From an uncultured Mucilaginibacter sp. (GTDB lineage: Bacteria > Bacteroidota > Bacteroidia > Sphingobacteriales > Sphingobacteriaceae): a DNA stretch of 59,766 nt. The position numbers were made by a program, and so were the translations under genes. The notes under the pieces are model-generated. The model did no database searches. It was not told where the DNA came from and saw nothing but the letters and a program-made list of their open reading frames with translations. Positions 3,575 to 47,124 of this stretch are shown one piece after another. Within the stretch, counting starts at the first letter, position 1. The number at the start of each line of letters is the position of its first letter. The stretch is from positions 4,996-64,761 of the forward strand of contig NZ_CALMAT010000046.1 in assembly GCF_937859865.1 (NCBI RefSeq), given 5' to 3'.

Positions 3575-4918
3575 TTAAAACGTCAACAAAAACGCCGTCC
3601 CTTCCCCTTCTACCGATTGTGCCTGGATTTGCGCTTTGTGCAGCAGCATAATTTGCTTACACAAACTTAGGCCAATGCCGCTGCCGTTTTTTTTGGTGCT
3701 GAAAAACGGAACGAAAATCTGCTCCAATAAATCTTCGGCCATGCCGGTGCCGTTATCGGTTATTTTGATCACGGTTTTTTTATCGTTCAAAACATAACCG
3801 GAAAGCACGATCTGTGGCTTTTCGCGTTCTTTTACGGCTTCAATGGCATTCACCAACAGGTTGATCAGCACTTGCTCGATCAGCATCGGATCCACTTCTA
3901 CCGTTAATCCCGGGTCTTTTAAAACGATGTCCAACTCAATGTTTTTCTGTGCTAAAGTTGGCTCCATCAGCGTGTTTAAACTTTCAAAAAGATCACGCAC
4001 ATAAACCTTTTTTACACTTAAAGTGATGATTTTATTGAGGTTACGGTAAGTTTCCGCAAATTTGAGCAAGCCTTCACTCCTGCGTTGGATGGTATCAATG
4101 CCCAGTTCTAAATCTTCCAGCAAAGCCGGTTCTGATTTTGGGGCGGTAAAAGAAGCATTGGCTTCCTGCAAGCGGTTTTTCAACGTATTGGCGAGGGAAG
4201 AAATCGGCGCGATGGAATTCATAATTTCGTGCGTCATCACACTTAACAACTTTTGCCAGGCGCGCGATTCGGTTTCATCCAATGCCTCGTTCACGTTTTG
4301 CAAAGCCAGCAGTTTGTAGCGTTTGCCTTCGGTTTGAAACCCGGTGGCCGATAACAAAACTTTGATAGACGATTGCGGCCCTTGCAAAGTAACAATCGAA
4401 CTGTTGCTGTTTTTAAGGCTGATAATTTCTTGGTACAAATGCCCGTCGCGCTTTTGCAGCGAGCGGATATTTTTTAAGTACGGTAAAAGAAGCATGGATT
4501 TTAGCGTTTCGTTCATCCAAACCACGTCGCCGGTTTCAGCTTCGTACGATAAAATGCCCGTCCCAACCAGTTCCAGTATTTTTTGCAGGTACTGGTATTG
4601 CGTTTCCTTCTCGCGCGAAATGGTTTTAAAAGTGGTGTTGATCGAATTAAAACCAACGCGCAACTCTTCCAAACCAACTGTTGAACCTTTGGTATTGTAA
4701 TGCCGGGAAAAATCGCGGTAGCGGATGGCTTCGGAAAACTGGTCTAACTCGACATAAATTTTTTGGTGAAAATTATACAGTTCAATTAGTTGTACCAAAA
4801 TCACGACCAGCATCCCATAAAAAAGCCCCAACCAATGATGAAAAAAAAGAAAACCTGCCAAGCAAAAAGTTGCTGGTAAAAACAGTATGCGGAAGAGGAT
4901 GGGCCAGCGGGTTTTCAT
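3575..4918 (-). CDS. NtrY-like membrane sensor histidine kinase
   Basis: A 447-residue kinase. Two N-terminal membrane segments (about residues 8-26 and 30-47) leave almost no periplasmic loop, so sensing may be within or at the membrane. A HAMP-like linker and PAS-like region (about 105-210) follow. The phospho-acceptor His is about residue 230 in MTHEIMNSIAPI, an H-box typical of NtrY-type kinases in Bacteroidota. The N-box is INLLVNAIEA, G1 is DNGTG (about 388-392) and G2 is GSGIGL (about 412-417). It lies 125 nt downstream of the NtrC-type regulator and is the last gene of the minus-strand unit that starts with P3 at 13989. It is the probable cognate kinase for that regulator. Confidence 0.93.
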   Translation of the reverse strand: MKTRWPILFRILFLPATFCLAGFLFFHHWLGLFYGMLVVILVQLIELYNFHQKIYVELDQFSEAIRYRDFSRHYNTKGSTVGLEELRVGFNSINTTFKTISREKETQYQYLQKILELVGTGILSYEAETGDVVWMNETLKSMLLLPYLKNIRSLQKRDGHLYQEIISLKNSNSSIVTLQGPQSSIKVLLSATGFQTEGKRYKLLALQNVNEALDETESRAWQKLLSVMTHEIMNSIAPISSLANTLKNRLQEANASFTAPKSEPALLEDLELGIDTIQRRSEGLLKFAETYRNLNKIITLSVKKVYVRDLFESLNTLMEPTLAQKNIELDIVLKDPGLTVEVDPMLIEQVLINLLVNAIEAVKEREKPQIVLSGYVLNDKKTVIKITDNGTGMAEDLLEQIFVPFFSTKKNGSGIGLSLCKQIMLLHKAQIQAQSVEGEGTAFLLTF

Positions 4919-8934: not shown

Positions 8935-9091
8935 TTTCTTGAGCTTTTAGCTGTCGGCAATCGGCTTTCAGCGGTTTGTATATTTTCTAATGCTTCTTTT
9001 ATCGGTGTTTTTTTGGTGTTAGGCATGAGGCATGAGGTTTTAAACTTGCAATCCGCTAATAGCCAAAAGCTGATTGCTGACCGCTTCCTCC
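8935..9091. repeat. Spacer with family B palindrome and the AAAAGAAGCAT word
   Basis: It contains family B copies at both ends, a GGCATGAGG/family A fragment, and ATGCTTCTTTTAT at 8990-9002. The word is therefore oriented towards P1. No reading frame. Confidence 0.6.
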
Positions 9092-14329: not shown

Positions 14330-14381
14330 ATTGCTTTAACCAAATAGTACACACTAAAAAATACCTGATAAAAGAAGCATC
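14266..14381. repeat. Perfect 15-bp inverted pair of the dispersed word flanking the adaptor promoter
   Basis: GATGCTTCTTTTATC (14266-14280) and GATAAAAGAAGCATC (14367-14381) are exact reverse complements, 86 nt apart. They enclose the predicted -24/-12 region and end immediately before the GTG start of the adaptor. In RNA only the right copy would be in the leader; in DNA the pair could extrude or recombine. Confidence 0.6.
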
Positions 14382-16851: not shown

Positions 16852-16900
16852 GATAAAAGAAGCATTGACCAATCCGGTGAAGAGTTTGCGGAGTGAATAA
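16852..16900 (+). pseudogene. 3'-terminal permease fragment joined to a spacer repeat
   Basis: The frame ATA AAA GAA GCA TTG ACC AAT CCG GTG AAG AGT TTG CGG AGT GAA TAA encodes IKEALTNPVKSLRSE and a stop, matching the last 15 residues of the permeases (IKAALANPVKSLRSE). Upstream, the sequence is not permease but typical spacer (ACCTCTTGCCAAAAAAACAT). The change happens inside the AAAAGAAGCAT word. It is a chimera of spacer and gene end, with no promoter or start of its own. Confidence 0.75.
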
Positions 16901-17000: not shown

Positions 17001-17043
17001 AAAAATATACCGATAAAAGAAGCATCAGTAAAATCAAAAAAAT

Positions 17044-29805: not shown

Positions 29806-30207
29806 TTAATGGATAACGTTAACCAACGGCTGATAAAGTAAAAATTTTTTGTCCACCGAGATGATAGGTATTTGTTCTGATAAAGCAGTTGCCAATAAAA
29901 ACCTGTCAAAAGGATCCCTGTGTTCTTCAAAAAGAGGAATGGACTGATAAGCATAAATATGTTCGTTTTTTAACGGTAACATATCAAAACCATCTGCCAA
30001 GAGTTGGTTGGCAATAAAATCTATACTGACTATAAATGCAGGAAGTTTGCTTAATTTTAATTTAATTGACAATTCCATCAAACTAAATTGGCTTACAAAA
30101 ATTTGATGGTTAAAATCTTCGATTAAAATTCGTAGCGAAGTTTTAAGCTTTGGGTTATCTTCTAAAGCCCAAATAATAATTTGGGTATCCAACAAGTAAT
30201 CCATCAA
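29806..30207 (-). CDS. PIN-domain toxin (VapC-like, COG3744 type)
   Basis: 133 residues starting MMDYLLDTQIIIWALED. The acidic PIN residues are visible: Asp7 in LLDTQ, a Glu in SLMELSIK, Asp in RDPFDRFLLATA and Asp in SVDKKF. PIN toxins of this type are Mg-dependent ribonucleases. Its ATG overlaps the antitoxin stop by 4 nt, so the pair is translationally coupled. The stop abuts P8 tail to tail. The TA pair sits inside the permease array between two plus-strand units. Confidence 0.88.
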   Translation of the reverse strand: MMDYLLDTQIIIWALEDNPKLKTSLRILIEDFNHQIFVSQFSLMELSIKLKLSKLPAFIVSIDFIANQLLADGFDMLPLKNEHIYAYQSIPLFEEHRDPFDRFLLATALSEQIPIISVDKKFLLYQPLVNVIH

Positions 30208-30419
30208 TACATGTAGTCGTTTAGATCATCGAGCGGATCGTTAAAATTATCAGGAATGCTGATTTTACCTTTTAAACTGCCTAACCGCCTTTTTGCAACA
30301 GGAAAAGGTTGCACTTCTTCCAAAAATGTAACCACAACTTTCGACTTGTTTTTAGTTGGTGGCATTTCATCTAAAACAATTTTTCCATTGTCGTATATGC
30401 CTTTAATGGTTGTCAGCAT
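30204..30419 (-). CDS. Antitoxin of the PIN toxin, DUF2281-like
   Basis: 71 residues from ATG 30419 (MLTTIKGIYDNGKIVLDEMP). A start at 30455 would add 12 residues but is less like relatives. It has an N-terminal swapped-hairpin-like strand pair, then KRRLGSLKGKISIPDNF and a C-terminal DPLDDLNDYMY, which is typical of DUF2281 antitoxins that block the PIN active site. It would bind its own promoter as the TA complex, but I could not pick out an operator with confidence. Confidence 0.8.
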   Translation of the reverse strand: MLTTIKGIYDNGKIVLDEMPPTKNKSKVVVTFLEEVQPFPVAKRRLGSLKGKISIPDNFNDPLDDLNDYMY

Positions 30420-30544
30420 GTTGTGTTTAATTGTAACCAAATTTAGTAAAGACAAACATCATTAAAAAATCAAAGTGTGTTTGCTTAATGTTTAGAAAAG
30501 CACTTGTTTTCGCCCCCACTCACTCCCCGGCACCTCAAATCTTC

Positions 30545-34577: not shown

Positions 34578-36965
34578 ATGATCAAAAACTACCTCAAAAT
34601 CGCCTGGCGTAACTTTTACAAGCAAAAGTTTTATTCTGGCATCAATGTATTTGGTTTGGCTATCGGCATCAGTTGCAGCATTGTGCTGTTCTTGTTTATC
34701 AATTATCATCTAAGTTTTGATACTTATCATACCAATGCCAAACGGATTTTCAGGACCGTAACCGACTTGCATATCCCGGATGGAAGTATTGATTACGATC
34801 AGGGTTCGCCTTATAGGATGACCGAATTTGTAAAAGGTTTACCATCTGTAACAAACAAAACTGCGCTGTTGGGTGAACGCAGTTTCACCGTTTCTGTATC
34901 TCAAAAAAACAAGGATAAACAAAGCCTTTTTTACGAGTTTGAGAATATTGCTTTTACAGACAACAACTGGTTTAAAATATTCACTTATCATTGGAAATGT
35001 GGCAATCCAAGTACGGCTTTAAGCAATCCATATACTGCGGTTATTACTTCCAATCTCGCCAAAAAATATTTCAATACAGACCAGGTTGTTGGTAAAACTA
35101 TCCAAGTTGAAAACAAGTATAATTTTACAATTACAGGTGTATTGCAGGATAATCCAAGCAATACGGATATTCAATCCAATCTGTTCTTGTCCATAATTTC
35201 GGTTCATACCATGTTCCCGGAACCAAAAGAATTTTGGACTGATATTGGCTTTGTCTCCTCAAAAAATTATGTTTTCTTGTTGTTGAATGATGAACATGCG
35301 CAGGAACAAGTTGAAGAGCAAATAAATGCAACGGTTAAAAAAAACTTTAATGCTTATAATTATTATCAGTTCCGGGTACAACCTTTAACGGATATACATT
35401 TTAACCCTCATTACAGTGGTAAAATTTCTAAACCCTTGTTATGGGTTTTGGCTTTGGTTGGGTTTGCCCTTATCCTGATTGCTTGTGTAAACTTTGTAAA
35501 TATGGCTACGGCACAAAGCTTAACCCGGGCAAAAGAAATTGGGACGCGGAAAGTTTTGGGCAGCAGCCGGAAAGCAATCTTCTGGCAGTTTATCGCAGAA
35601 ACCGCTTTCGTTGCTTTATCAGCAGGATTGCTTGGCTTGCTTTTGACCATACTGTTTTTACCAACCTTAAATAATTGGTTGCAAATTCCGTTGGCTATAA
35701 ATTACCAATCAATTTTATTTTTGATGGTTTTGTTACTTGTGATTGTGTTTGTCGCCGGTTTTTATCCTGCCGTAATTTTAAGTGGTTTTAAACCGGTTGA
35801 CGCTTTAAAAAACAGGATAGGAAACAGCAATACTTCTTCCAAAGTATCAAGAAATGTATTGATCATCCTGCAAAACGTGATTGCGCAATCTTTGATTGTT
35901 TGCACCATCATCATTGTTTTGCAAGTGAAGTTTTTGAGAAATGCTGATCTGGGTTTTAACAAAGATGCTATCATTATGGTTCCCGTTCCTGATCATTCTC
36001 CATCAAAGCTCTCCTATTTCCGCAACCAGTTAAGCAACTATCCCGGGATAAAAAGTGTAACTTTTTGCTACAAGCCGCCTTCTGCAATAACGCAAAAAGG
36101 AGGAAGTATCCGTTACGACGGGCACGAGTGGGAAAAGTTTACGGTTTCTAGTATTATTGGAGACCAGAATTACATCAAAACCTTTGGCTTGAAGTTACTT
36201 GTCGGCCGCAATTTGTCTTCTACAGATACAACAAACGCGTACATTGTTAACCAGCAGGTTTTGAGAAGTTTAGGTATAAAAAAACCAGAACAGGCAATTG
36301 GACGACGGCTTACTGCCGGTGATTTTGGCGATCATACGGGAACGATCATCGGTGTGGTAAAAGATTTTAACATCGTTCCGCTTACTTCTGGATTAGCACC
36401 TGCTTTAATTACTGCTGCACCAACATATTTTGAAAATGCTGCGGTCAAAATAACTGGTTCCCACCAACATGAAACCCTCAATTTGATTCAGCAGCAGTGG
36501 CAAAAAACGTATCCGCAAAACGCTTTTGAGTACCATTTTTTGGATGAACAATTGGCCGAATTTTACCAGAAAGAGGAAATGATTGGCAAGCTGATTACAG
36601 CAGGAACGGTAGTTGCTATCCTGATCAGTTGCCTGGGGTTGCTGGGGTTGATTTCGTTGATGACGGTACAACGCACCAAAGAAATCGGAATCCGGAAAGT
36701 ACTTGGCGCAACTGTTAGCAATATTGTGGCTTTGATTTCCAAAGATTTTATCAAACTAATTGCCCTGGCAGTTTTAATTAGTACGCCTTTTGCTTGGTGG
36801 GCAATGCACAATTGGCTGGAAAGCTTTGCTTACCGCATCAACATCAGTTGGTGGATTTTTGCTTTGACCGGAATTTTAGCCATTGTCATCGCACTGCTCA
36901 CCATCAGTTTTCAATCGGTAAAAGCAGCATTGGCCAATCCGGTAAAAAGTTTGAGGAGTGAGTGA
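34578..36965 (+). CDS. ABC permease P10 (MacB/FtsX type)
   Basis: 795 residues starting MIKNYLKIAWRNFYKQK. The docking loops are TRAKEIGTRKVLGSS (Thr for the usual hydrophobic residue) and RTKEIGIRKVLGAT. QPLTDIHFNPHYSG groups it with P2. The second leading helix is atypical, with NVLIILQNVIAQSLIV in place of a VVFQF-type segment. The 5' end is the closest match to the relic at 37865, which shares AWRNFYKQK. Confidence 0.95.
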   Translation: MIKNYLKIAWRNFYKQKFYSGINVFGLAIGISCSIVLFLFINYHLSFDTYHTNAKRIFRTVTDLHIPDGSIDYDQGSPYRMTEFVKGLPSVTNKTALLGERSFTVSVSQKNKDKQSLFYEFENIAFTDNNWFKIFTYHWKCGNPSTALSNPYTAVITSNLAKKYFNTDQVVGKTIQVENKYNFTITGVLQDNPSNTDIQSNLFLSIISVHTMFPEPKEFWTDIGFVSSKNYVFLLLNDEHAQEQVEEQINATVKKNFNAYNYYQFRVQPLTDIHFNPHYSGKISKPLLWVLALVGFALILIACVNFVNMATAQSLTRAKEIGTRKVLGSSRKAIFWQFIAETAFVALSAGLLGLLLTILFLPTLNNWLQIPLAINYQSILFLMVLLLVIVFVAGFYPAVILSGFKPVDALKNRIGNSNTSSKVSRNVLIILQNVIAQSLIVCTIIIVLQVKFLRNADLGFNKDAIIMVPVPDHSPSKLSYFRNQLSNYPGIKSVTFCYKPPSAITQKGGSIRYDGHEWEKFTVSSIIGDQNYIKTFGLKLLVGRNLSSTDTTNAYIVNQQVLRSLGIKKPEQAIGRRLTAGDFGDHTGTIIGVVKDFNIVPLTSGLAPALITAAPTYFENAAVKITGSHQHETLNLIQQQWQKTYPQNAFEYHFLDEQLAEFYQKEEMIGKLITAGTVVAILISCLGLLGLISLMTVQRTKEIGIRKVLGATVSNIVALISKDFIKLIALAVLISTPFAWWAMHNWLESFAYRINISWWIFALTGILAIVIALLTISFQSVKAALANPVKSLRSE

Positions 36966-37141: not shown

Positions 37142-37169
37142 AAAAAAGTATCGATAAAAGAAGCATCAG

Positions 37170-37583
37170 CTAAAAGCTATTGACAAAATCGACCGCATTT
37201 AAAATAGAGATGCCACGAAACGGATGGAGGACAAGGAGGTCTTTATCTCCGGTGATAATACAAGAGGCATTTGCAGAAATGGCTAATTCCAAAAATTTAT
37301 TGTCTTTAGGATCCCGGCAATCGGTGATGATAAAATCAGGTGTAAAAAGTTTTGAATTGGCTTCCAATCTACTTAATATAGACCAACGCTCCTCATCGCC
37401 TAAAAAATATCTGTCAAATTTTTTACGAAACAATACCTCAGTAAACTCCTCAAAAGTGCTTTGCGAAACTGCAATAGTTCCTATGGCAATAGCTTTATCT
37501 ATTGCTTTGCTATTTGTAGAGTTTTTAATAAGTGCTGAGCTGATTAATGTGTTTGTATCAAAAACAAAAAAATCAATCTTCAT
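37170..37583 (-). CDS. PIN-family toxin (COG1569 type)
   Basis: 137 residues: FFVFDTNTLISSAL with the first catalytic Asp, a central Glu in STFEEFTEVLF, DCRDPKDNKFLELAI with the second Asp, and IITGDKDLL with the third. This is the signature of the PIN toxin group annotated as a toxin component of unknown system. It overlaps the upstream partner gene by 11 nt. An open frame on the other strand (37180-37854) is a shadow. This is the second PIN module inside the array and is of a different subfamily from that at 29806. Confidence 0.87.
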   Translation of the reverse strand: MKIDFFVFDTNTLISSALIKNSTNSKAIDKAIAIGTIAVSQSTFEEFTEVLFRKKFDRYFLGDEERWSILSRLEANSKLFTPDFIITDCRDPKDNKFLELAISANASCIITGDKDLLVLHPFRGISILNAVDFVNSF

Positions 37584-37803
37584 CTTTCAAGATGTCATTC
37601 AAGATCTCTTCTGTAAGGCCACGCTCCTCCATTGTATCCCTTATTTCATCAAGAAACTGCTTGAATTCACTTTTAGGATCAGTCATCAATTCCTTGGCCA
37701 GCCTGATATTTATTTGCTGAGATACTTTATTCTTTGTTTGTTGCGAAGACAACCGCCATTTTTTTGCCGTAGCGTCTTCAACTTCAATAACGATCCGTTC
37801 CAT
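37573..37803 (-). CDS. Putative antitoxin partner of the COG1569 PIN toxin
   Basis: 76 residues starting MERIVIEVEDATAKKWRLSS, highly charged and helical, with an acidic C-terminus (LTEEILNDILKDED). The N-terminal strand with IVIEV may form a ribbon-helix-helix-like DNA-binding dimer, as in partners of this toxin type. It is translationally coupled to the toxin through an 11-nt overlap. Identification rests mainly on position and size. Confidence 0.7.
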   Translation of the reverse strand: MERIVIEVEDATAKKWRLSSQQTKNKVSQQINIRLAKELMTDPKSEFKQFLDEIRDTMEERGLTEEILNDILKDED

Positions 37804-37864
37804 TTTACAATAATTTCGGGTTACAAGTCAAATTTACAAAAATTAAGGGTTTAATATTTGCACT

Positions 37865-37938
37865 ATGATTACAAATTATTTCAAAATTGCCTGGCGTAAC
37901 TTTTATAAGCAAAAGTAAAAAGTTTGAGGAGCGAATAG
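37865..37938 (+). pseudogene. Permease relic: 5' end joined directly to 3' end
   Basis: ATG at 37865 begins MITNYFKIAWRNFYKQK, then TAA. Immediately after comes AAA AGT TTG AGG AGC GAA TAG (37918-37938), the KSLRSE-stop ending of the permeases, in a different frame. About 2.3 kb that normally separates these ends is missing. The closest intact relative of the 5' part is P10. No long shared sequence is visible at the joint. Family C begins 4 nt later. Confidence 0.85.
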
Positions 37939-37941
37939 AAA

Positions 37942-38040
37942 AGCCTCACTTAAACCCGCTCCAAAAGAGAGGGCTTTTGCATAGCAAACTATAAAAGTGA
38001 TGAACTTTGCTTCCTCCCCTTTGGGGAGGTTAGGAGGGTT
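37942..38040. repeat. Family C repeat, copy 3
   Basis: It begins AGCCTCACTTAAACCC and ends GGGGAGGTTAGGAGGGTT. It starts 4 nt after the permease relic, and its final bases reach into the stop codon of the SDR gene at 38039. Like copy 1, it follows a permease 3' end almost directly. Confidence 0.65.
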
Positions 38041-38815
38041 ACGCCCCCTGTGCCACCATACGCATCAAACCGCCATCCATGGCATAAGTAGAACCGGTAA
38101 CATAATCGGCATCTGCAGAAGCCAGAAAAACAGCAACTTTAGCAATTTCCTGTGGCTCGCCTGCTCTTTTCATCGGTATTTTTTGTTCTTTTTGTTCGCG
38201 GTCTTTCGGGTCGTCGATAGCTTTTTGGTTCATCGGCGTTAAGATCATACCGGGCGCAATGTTGTTTACGTTGATGCCTTGTTCGGCAACTTCGAGCGCT
38301 AACGTGCGCATCAGGTTGCGTAAACCACCTTTGGATGCGCAGTAATCTGCGGTTCCGGCCGAAACCACTTCTTCGTGTATCGAACTGATATTCACAATTT
38401 TCCCTTTGCCGCCTTGTTGCAAACGGTGTTTTAAAAAGGCACGGCAGCAAAAAAACGGACCGTATAAATTGGTTTTAATCGTTCGGTCAAAAGTTGCCGT
38501 ATCCATATCTGCAACAGTCGTTCCGGAGCCGTTTACGCCCGCATCATTCACCAAAATATCTAAAGTTTGGTATTGCTGGTAAGCTTGTTCAAACAGTTGT
38601 GCCACACTTTGCTCATCGCTTACGTCGGCGTACAAAACCAAGCCTTTTTGTCCGGTTTGTTCTACCTGCTGTAATGTTTCTTCGGCGTTTTCCTGATCTT
38701 TAAAATAAACGATAACCACGTTTGCACCTTCTTTGGCAAACTCAATGGCGATTGCCTGGCCGATGCCTGATTCTGCCCCGGTTACGAGCGCTGTTTTTCC
38801 GGATAGTTTTTTCAT
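38039..38815 (-). CDS. SDR-family oxidoreductase, glucose 1-dehydrogenase-like
   Basis: 258 residues, a classical SDR. TGAESGIG is at 12-19, an acidic YADVSD at about 62-67, NDAG at 90-93 (variant of NNAG), the catalytic Ser in VNISSIHEE, and YCASK with Tyr158 and Lys162. PGMI and the C-terminal VTGSTYAMDGG complete the fold. Relatives are annotated as glucose 1-dehydrogenases or 3-oxoacyl reductases; the substrate is not certain. It is cytoplasmic. It stands alone on the minus strand between two plus-strand array units and is divergent from the small secreted gene. Confidence 0.9.
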   Translation of the reverse strand: MKKLSGKTALVTGAESGIGQAIAIEFAKEGANVVIVYFKDQENAEETLQQVEQTGQKGLVLYADVSDEQSVAQLFEQAYQQYQTLDILVNDAGVNGSGTTVADMDTATFDRTIKTNLYGPFFCCRAFLKHRLQQGGKGKIVNISSIHEEVVSAGTADYCASKGGLRNLMRTLALEVAEQGINVNNIAPGMILTPMNQKAIDDPKDREQKEQKIPMKRAGEPQEIAKVAVFLASADADYVTGSTYAMDGGLMRMVAQGA

Positions 38816-46947: not shown

Positions 46948-47124
46948 GGAAAAAGCTATCGGCTATCGGCTTTTAGCCATCAGCCTTTGCAAAGCCTCAT
47001 TCCTCGCACCAAAAAAACACCGATAAAAGAAGCATCAGCAACTTGTAAAGTTTAGTACCTGCAACCTCACACCTCGCACCAAAAATATACCGATAAAAGA
47101 AGCATCAGCTAAAAACCAAATCCC
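46948..47124. repeat. Spacer with a duplicated 71-bp leader unit
   Basis: GATAAAAGAAGCATCAGC occurs twice, at about 47022 and 47093, 71 nt apart. Each copy is preceded by CCTCGCACCAAAAA. A family B fragment (GCTATCGGCTATCGGC) follows the P13 stop. This is a recent-looking tandem duplication of the leader. Confidence 0.65.

Follow-up and report, generated by a model that had tools for sequence, protein, structure and literature searches.

A 74-bp permease remnant in a Mucilaginibacter array, very probably the scar of a gene still intact in a related species

The 74 bp at positions 37865–37938 are very probably a dead scar of gene loss, ordinary in kind, in which the beginning of a MacB/FtsX-type permease has been joined out of frame to the end of a permease. 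Three genomes of the GTDB genus, one per species, were compared: the genome that carries the relic (G000, the window genome), Mucilaginibacter arboris HMF7410 (G001) and a Sphingobacteriaceae metagenome-assembled genome from lichen (G002). G002 still carries an intact gene at the same spot, and the relic is therefore read as the product of ordinary gene loss. We refer to the whole stretch of DNA analyzed, 59,766 nucleotides, as the window. The relic and its surroundings consist of the following features.

34578–36965, plus strand: intact MacB/FtsX-type permease of 795 aa (Pfam MacB_PCD and FtsX), the closest relative of the lost gene in the window genome.
37170–37583, minus strand: PIN-domain toxin candidate of 137 aa (PF13470 PIN_3, E 1.2e-17), 85% aa identity to the G002 copy.
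37573–37803, minus strand: candidate antitoxin of 76 aa that overlaps the PIN start, 80% aa identity to G002 and 45% to G001.
37804–37864, no strand: spacer of 61 bp from the antitoxin start to the permease start, aligned in all three species.
37865–37915, plus strand: permease head relic, codons 1–17, identical at 44/51 bases to the head of permease 34578–36965 and at 40/51 to that of the G002 slot permease.
37915–37938, plus strand: permease tail relic, VKSLRSE-stop (tail motif).
37939–38038, no strand: palindromic array repeat (family C), with copies at 81–85% identity in permease arrays.
38039–38815, minus strand: SDR-family oxidoreductase (PF13561), 77% aa identity to the copy in the other G002 array (C9).

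Direct reading of the relic gives the codons ATG ATT ACA AAT TAT TTC AAA ATT GCC TGG CGT AAC TTT TAT AAG CAA AAG, followed by TAAAAAGTTTGAGGAGCGAATAG. The head translates as MITNYFKIAWRNFYKQK, with its ATG at 37865 and a TAA at 37916–37918. The tail, KSLRSE-TAG, lies in the +2 frame, from AAA at 37918–37920 to TAG at 37936–37938. When the G at 37915 that is common to both sides is counted, the tail part GTAAAAAGTTTGAGGAGCGAATAG reads V-K-S-L-R-S-E-stop. Thus, the preliminary description, in which 17 head codons of a permease are joined to its last six, is borne out, with seven tail codons if V is included. Both permease termini are kept, the body is missing, and the reading frame is destroyed by the TAA directly at the junction and by the +2 position of the tail. 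Because the fusion is out of frame and followed by an immediate stop, no permease is made, and the relic itself encodes no MacB/FtsX permease domain. The borders are also as first described, with the PIN/antitoxin pair on the left and the palindromic repeat on the right. Similar copies of this repeat occur mostly within the permease arrays of the window genome and G002, and it folds better than shuffled sequences on both strands (z −2.4 and −2.6).

Both ends of the relic are recognizably those of array permeases. In a whole-genome search, the best non-self match of the head was permease 34578–36965 (E 3.7e-11). This permease begins MIKNYLKIAWRNFYKQK, ends NPVKSLRSE, and scores 108 bits for MacB_PCD and 89 bits for FtsX against curated cut-offs of 27 and 25.5. 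MacB/FtsX-type ABC permeases in Bacteroidota multi-permease arrays likewise combine MacB_PCD and FtsX with an N-terminal NYxKIAWRN and a C-terminal NPVKSLRSE, and their arrays likewise have one ATPase and one HlyD-type adaptor nearby. The tail motif, searched with up to two mismatches, occurs 18 times in the 3.98-Mb genome, always within the window array: at 16 intact permease ends, in the 74-bp relic and at one orphan site (16877–16900). The reversed-motif control gave 1 match. Deletion scars (internal-deletion pseudogenes) in bacterial gene arrays likewise have lost the gene body and kept both termini, and they share with the relic an out-of-frame junction, a short common sequence at that junction and an intact orthologue in a sister species. 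Nothing essential sets the relic apart from them; its only special features are the flanking toxin-antitoxin (TA) pair and the array setting.

The same slot is found in a different state in each of the three species. In G002, an intact 795-aa permease (C7:80443–82830) lies directly after the orthologous antitoxin/PIN pair. The window and G002 share 83% DNA identity over 340 bp that span the antitoxin gene, the spacer and the permease head; the match stops inside the head, 3 bp before the relic junction, and G002 then continues as permease. As position and sequence show, the ancestor of the window species and G002 carried a MacB/FtsX-type permease 61 bp from the antitoxin start and divergent from the pair. 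In M. arboris, a degenerate head comes after the antitoxin and spacer and is slightly longer than that of the relic, its similarity extending beyond codon 17; unrelated sequence and an ABC ATPase gene follow. The orthologues of permease 44477 show 87% identity to G002 versus 70% to G001, which places the window genome nearer to G002 than to G001. From these sequence comparisons, the window genome and G001 are therefore best read as having lost the permease independently, G001 at an earlier time and with a different end point.

An intact permease between the PIN module and the SDR gene was the arrangement that the preliminary description proposed to look for in relatives. G002 has the intact permease after the pair, but the gene on its other side is not the SDR gene, which in G002 belongs to a second array and neighbors a different permease. 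Elsewhere in G002 (C7:88974–91384, locus L023), a permease is split into frames of 293 and 504 aa and is either a pseudogene or a frameshift error.

The lost permease was probably dispensable, because a close relative is present across the TA pair; with this nearest relative surviving next door, the lost gene may have been a spare or a relocated copy. There are two possibilities for this arrangement. The pair may originally have had a related gene on each side, one of which then disappeared; alternatively, the gene was duplicated or relocated, and what remained at the old position decayed. In the second case, the slot permease would have been copied or moved across the TA pair to become 34578–36965, and the scar would have stayed behind. 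We regard this as a possibility to be weighed, though less likely than not. Permease 34578–36965 lies immediately across the pair, its head agrees with that of the relic at 44 of 51 bases, and it groups as sister to the slot permease of G002 (71% aa identity, branch support 100/100). The fourfold-site identity of these two genes is 0.42, as compared with 0.41–0.60 for clear orthologue pairs. However, 71% is the lowest aa identity among seven orthologue pairs, so that 34578–36965 could equally be an older paralogue, and its upstream flanks are ordinary array spacer, unlike the spacer of the slot. Fourfold sites were thus set aside as a test of orthologue versus paralogue, since the pair falls within the orthologue range yet is the lowest by protein identity.

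How much was lost depends on the origin of the tail. The preliminary description had a whole permease body of about 2.3 kb missing. The intact 795-aa gene of G002 supports the loss of the body, but the size is better given as about 2.3 kb or more. Because the G002 SDR gene lies beside a different permease, the tail could derive from a second permease, so that the size of the loss is not fixed; the figure of 2.3 kb is thus a lower bound for the case in which one gene was lost. It is conceivable, though on balance rather unlikely, that the deletion began in the slot permease and extended into the tail of another, SDR-adjacent permease, with more than one gene lost. In G002, the end of the permease at C9:172075 is 67 bp away from the SDR stop, the two genes being convergent as in the window; its tail has AGC-GAA-TAG in common with the relic tail and agrees with it at 21/24 bases overall. 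Several other tails match at 22/24, however, and the sequence between tail and SDR gene cannot be aligned to G002, so that this spacer did not serve to trace the tail to the SDR-adjacent permease. When we asked whether both termini come from one gene, many permeases matched the 24-base tail at 20–22 positions. Tracing the tail to a single donor by these 24 bases and the downstream repeat was ambiguous.

Whatever the donor, in the window lineage the stretch from codon 17 of the slot permease to the seventh-last codon of a permease would have been deleted. At the relic junction, 2 bp (GT) are explained by both sides. For breakpoint geometry, permease 34578–36965 stood in for the lost gene, being the best model at hand. 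When its first and last 90 bases are compared, the longest shared word is AAAAGTTT (8 bp), with copies at codon 16–18 and 21 bases from the end, and the relic junction falls within 7 bp of it. A deletion exactly between these repeats was rejected: it would yield GCAAAAGTTTGAGG, and the relic reads GCAAAAGTAAAAAGTTTGAGG. The GT and the nearby 8-bp repeat suggest that the deletion was most likely a single event, through either RecA-independent short-homology deletion or end joining. Either route would fit better than homologous recombination between long conserved ends. The earlier statement that such loss happens between conserved ends is not upheld in that form, as the junction shares GT alone and the 8-bp word lies close to it but off it.

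A functional leader peptide or small RNA of 74 nt is very unlikely. The start codon is intact, the frame is open for 17 codons, and the spacer is conserved with G002, but the divergent antitoxin gene explains the conservation of the spacer. Furthermore, the strict head-to-tail pattern occurs in one genome of 400 in the family, and the G001 counterpart has no open head. The relic has no Rfam match at E 1, and its RNA folds no better than shuffled sequences (z +0.9). Thus, relatives have no conserved short form, and the relic has neither a stable structure nor a known family. Around the relic, a terminator scan found nothing above shuffles and a sigma-70 promoter scan gave counts near chance. 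With Rfam, folding and conservation all negative, the small RNA or leader was rejected. A short form conserved without any intact version, which the preliminary description had named as evidence against its own reading, was sought in the 400 family genomes and the two congeners and was not found. An assembly artifact that joined two permease ends is similarly improbable: although the array is repeat-rich and the genome is in 177 contigs, the window contains no Ns, the 2 bp common to both ends at the junction are far fewer than any assembly overlap, and G001 also carries a relic at the same spot.

The pair that borders the scar is itself a recurrent component of permease arrays. The toxin candidate scores 65 bits for PIN_3 against a Pfam cut-off of 27 and has a 76-aa overlapping partner. 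As in PIN-domain (VapC-like) TA pairs, a small gene encoded on the same strand lies ahead of the PIN_3 gene and overlaps it. The window pair differs from such pairs in that the candidate antitoxin has no Pfam match, the toxin is a candidate only, and the pair recurs between permease genes of several Bacteroidota genera. Twenty loci found by similarity to the PIN protein were inspected for permeases. At 15 of them, G002 included, a permease frame starts beside the PIN gene in the same divergent position (L027, L028, L030, L031, L032, L033, L034, L037, L038, L039, L040, L042, L045, L048 and L052); the L031 permease is interrupted, and contig ends truncate two of the permeases. Different subfamilies are represented among the slot permeases of these 15 Bacteroidota loci, and the recurring PIN/antitoxin pair is always divergent from the downstream permease (37170–37803; loci L027–L052). 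Among these loci, the occupied slot is the common state, and the PIN/partner pair recurs inside permease arrays of several Bacteroidota groups.

As in integron cassette arrays, a TA pair within a gene array could select against deletions that span it; here there is an association only. The TA pair and the divergent spacer may have been kept because loss of the antitoxin gene would poison the cells. The PIN gene that adjoins the decayed head in M. arboris (L024, 13300–13630) is split over two frames, as though shrinkage of the array were followed by decay of the pair. The window array also contains, at 29806–30455, a second, putative PIN-type pair of 133 aa and 83 aa, and G002 has a homologue of this pair in its array near C9:159516–160128.

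Scars of this kind are scarce. The preliminary description took end-to-end relics as the footprint of array contraction, but a genome-wide count shows their rarity: the window genome has one head-to-tail relic and one orphan tail, G001 has one head remnant, and G002 has none. No other strict head-to-tail match was found in 400 family genomes, a strict pattern that leaves more diverged scars uncounted. The orphan tail is the following feature.

16852–16900, plus strand: orphan permease tail ALTNPVKSLRSE-stop (tail motif) fused to an exact TAAAAGAAGCAT copy, with a palindromic repeat copy directly after it.

This orphan tail is joined to GATAAAAGAAGCAT, at a site between the ATPase gene and the first permease. 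TAAAAGAAGCAT precedes many array permeases, and the tails of these permeases carry TAAAAGCAGCAT. Recombination between TAAAAGAAGCAT and TAAAAGCAGCAT would remove one permease and leave the arrangement seen at 16852–16900, which is one case.

TAAAAGAAGCAT is the core of a dispersed 16-base word, CGRTAAAAGAAGCATY. Exact copies number 548 in the window genome and 422 and 289 in the two congeners (277+271, 207+215 and 138+151 by strand; reversed control 0), as compared with at most one copy in each of the other family genomes (n = 248). The word is thus over-represented on both strands in a clade-specific manner, as a DNA uptake sequence is. Examples in the window are at 4147–4158, 8990–9001, 14369–14380, 17014–17025, 37155–37166 and 47024–47035. 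A search of 390 kb of M. arboris found 168 occurrences of the 12-base core, in genic and intergenic positions (reversed control 0), with a T-rich tract 7–12 bp upstream. Upstream of permeases, the word lies in the direction of the gene in 21 of 37 genes and in the opposite direction in 0; for other genes, the numbers are 35 and 22 of 283.

The permease tails carry a one-mismatch copy of the word. An alanine codon fixes this mismatch, which is seldom found outside the tails (one in 390 kb), so that the tails may not represent functional copies. Over the last 21 codons of the 16 window permeases (e.g., 36903–36965), synonymous sites are nearly fixed among paralogues at 30–50% protein identity. 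Synonymous uniformity at codons −8 to −21 is 0.74–0.88 in the window genus versus 0.36–0.39 expected, and it is absent or only slight in seven other genera. DNA-level conservation of the tail as a general trait of such permeases was therefore rejected, as it is confined to the window genus. Codon choice in the tails follows the word, built from an independent region, by 3.2–3.5 standard deviations in the genus and by −0.2 to 1.6 in other genera.

A DNA-uptake signal is the best analogy for CGRTAAAAGAAGCATY. The DNA uptake sequences of Neisseriaceae and the uptake signal sequences of Pasteurellaceae, which it resembles, are likewise short, present in hundreds of copies equally on both strands, located in and outside genes, accompanied by a T-rich tract about one helix turn from the core and restricted to one clade (PMC3630211, PMC1626085). 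CGRTAAAAGAAGCATY differs from them in its Bacteroidota host and its lower density, and an uptake role is suggested by analogy. For DNA-uptake specificity in Bacteroidota, a limited literature search found only the Riemerella uptake-signal candidates, which their authors call unconfirmed (PMC7965970). The literature search found no description of the permease arrays or of the CGRTAAAAGAAGCATY word.

The scar, the orphan tail and the word could be combined in one scheme. An uptake-type core, TAAAAGAAGCAT with its T-rich tract, would bracket permeases, with an exact copy in the spacer before many genes, always oriented like the gene, and a one-mismatch copy at the 3′ end. Recombination between the copies would remove single permeases, as at 16852–16900, and the 74-bp relic would have arisen by a short-homology route in the only slot without an upstream copy. 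As a whole, we consider this scheme unlikely.

Two points deserve follow-up beyond an ordinary scar: the genus-wide word and the recurrence of the TA pair within permease arrays. Across three related species, one slot presents the intact, the freshly deleted and the decayed state, which makes it a dated, position-controlled case of permease-array shrinkage in Bacteroidota. The recurrence of a TA pair between permeases raises the question of whether TA pairs protect arrays from deletion. The word, if it directs DNA uptake, would amount to DNA-uptake specificity in Bacteroidota.
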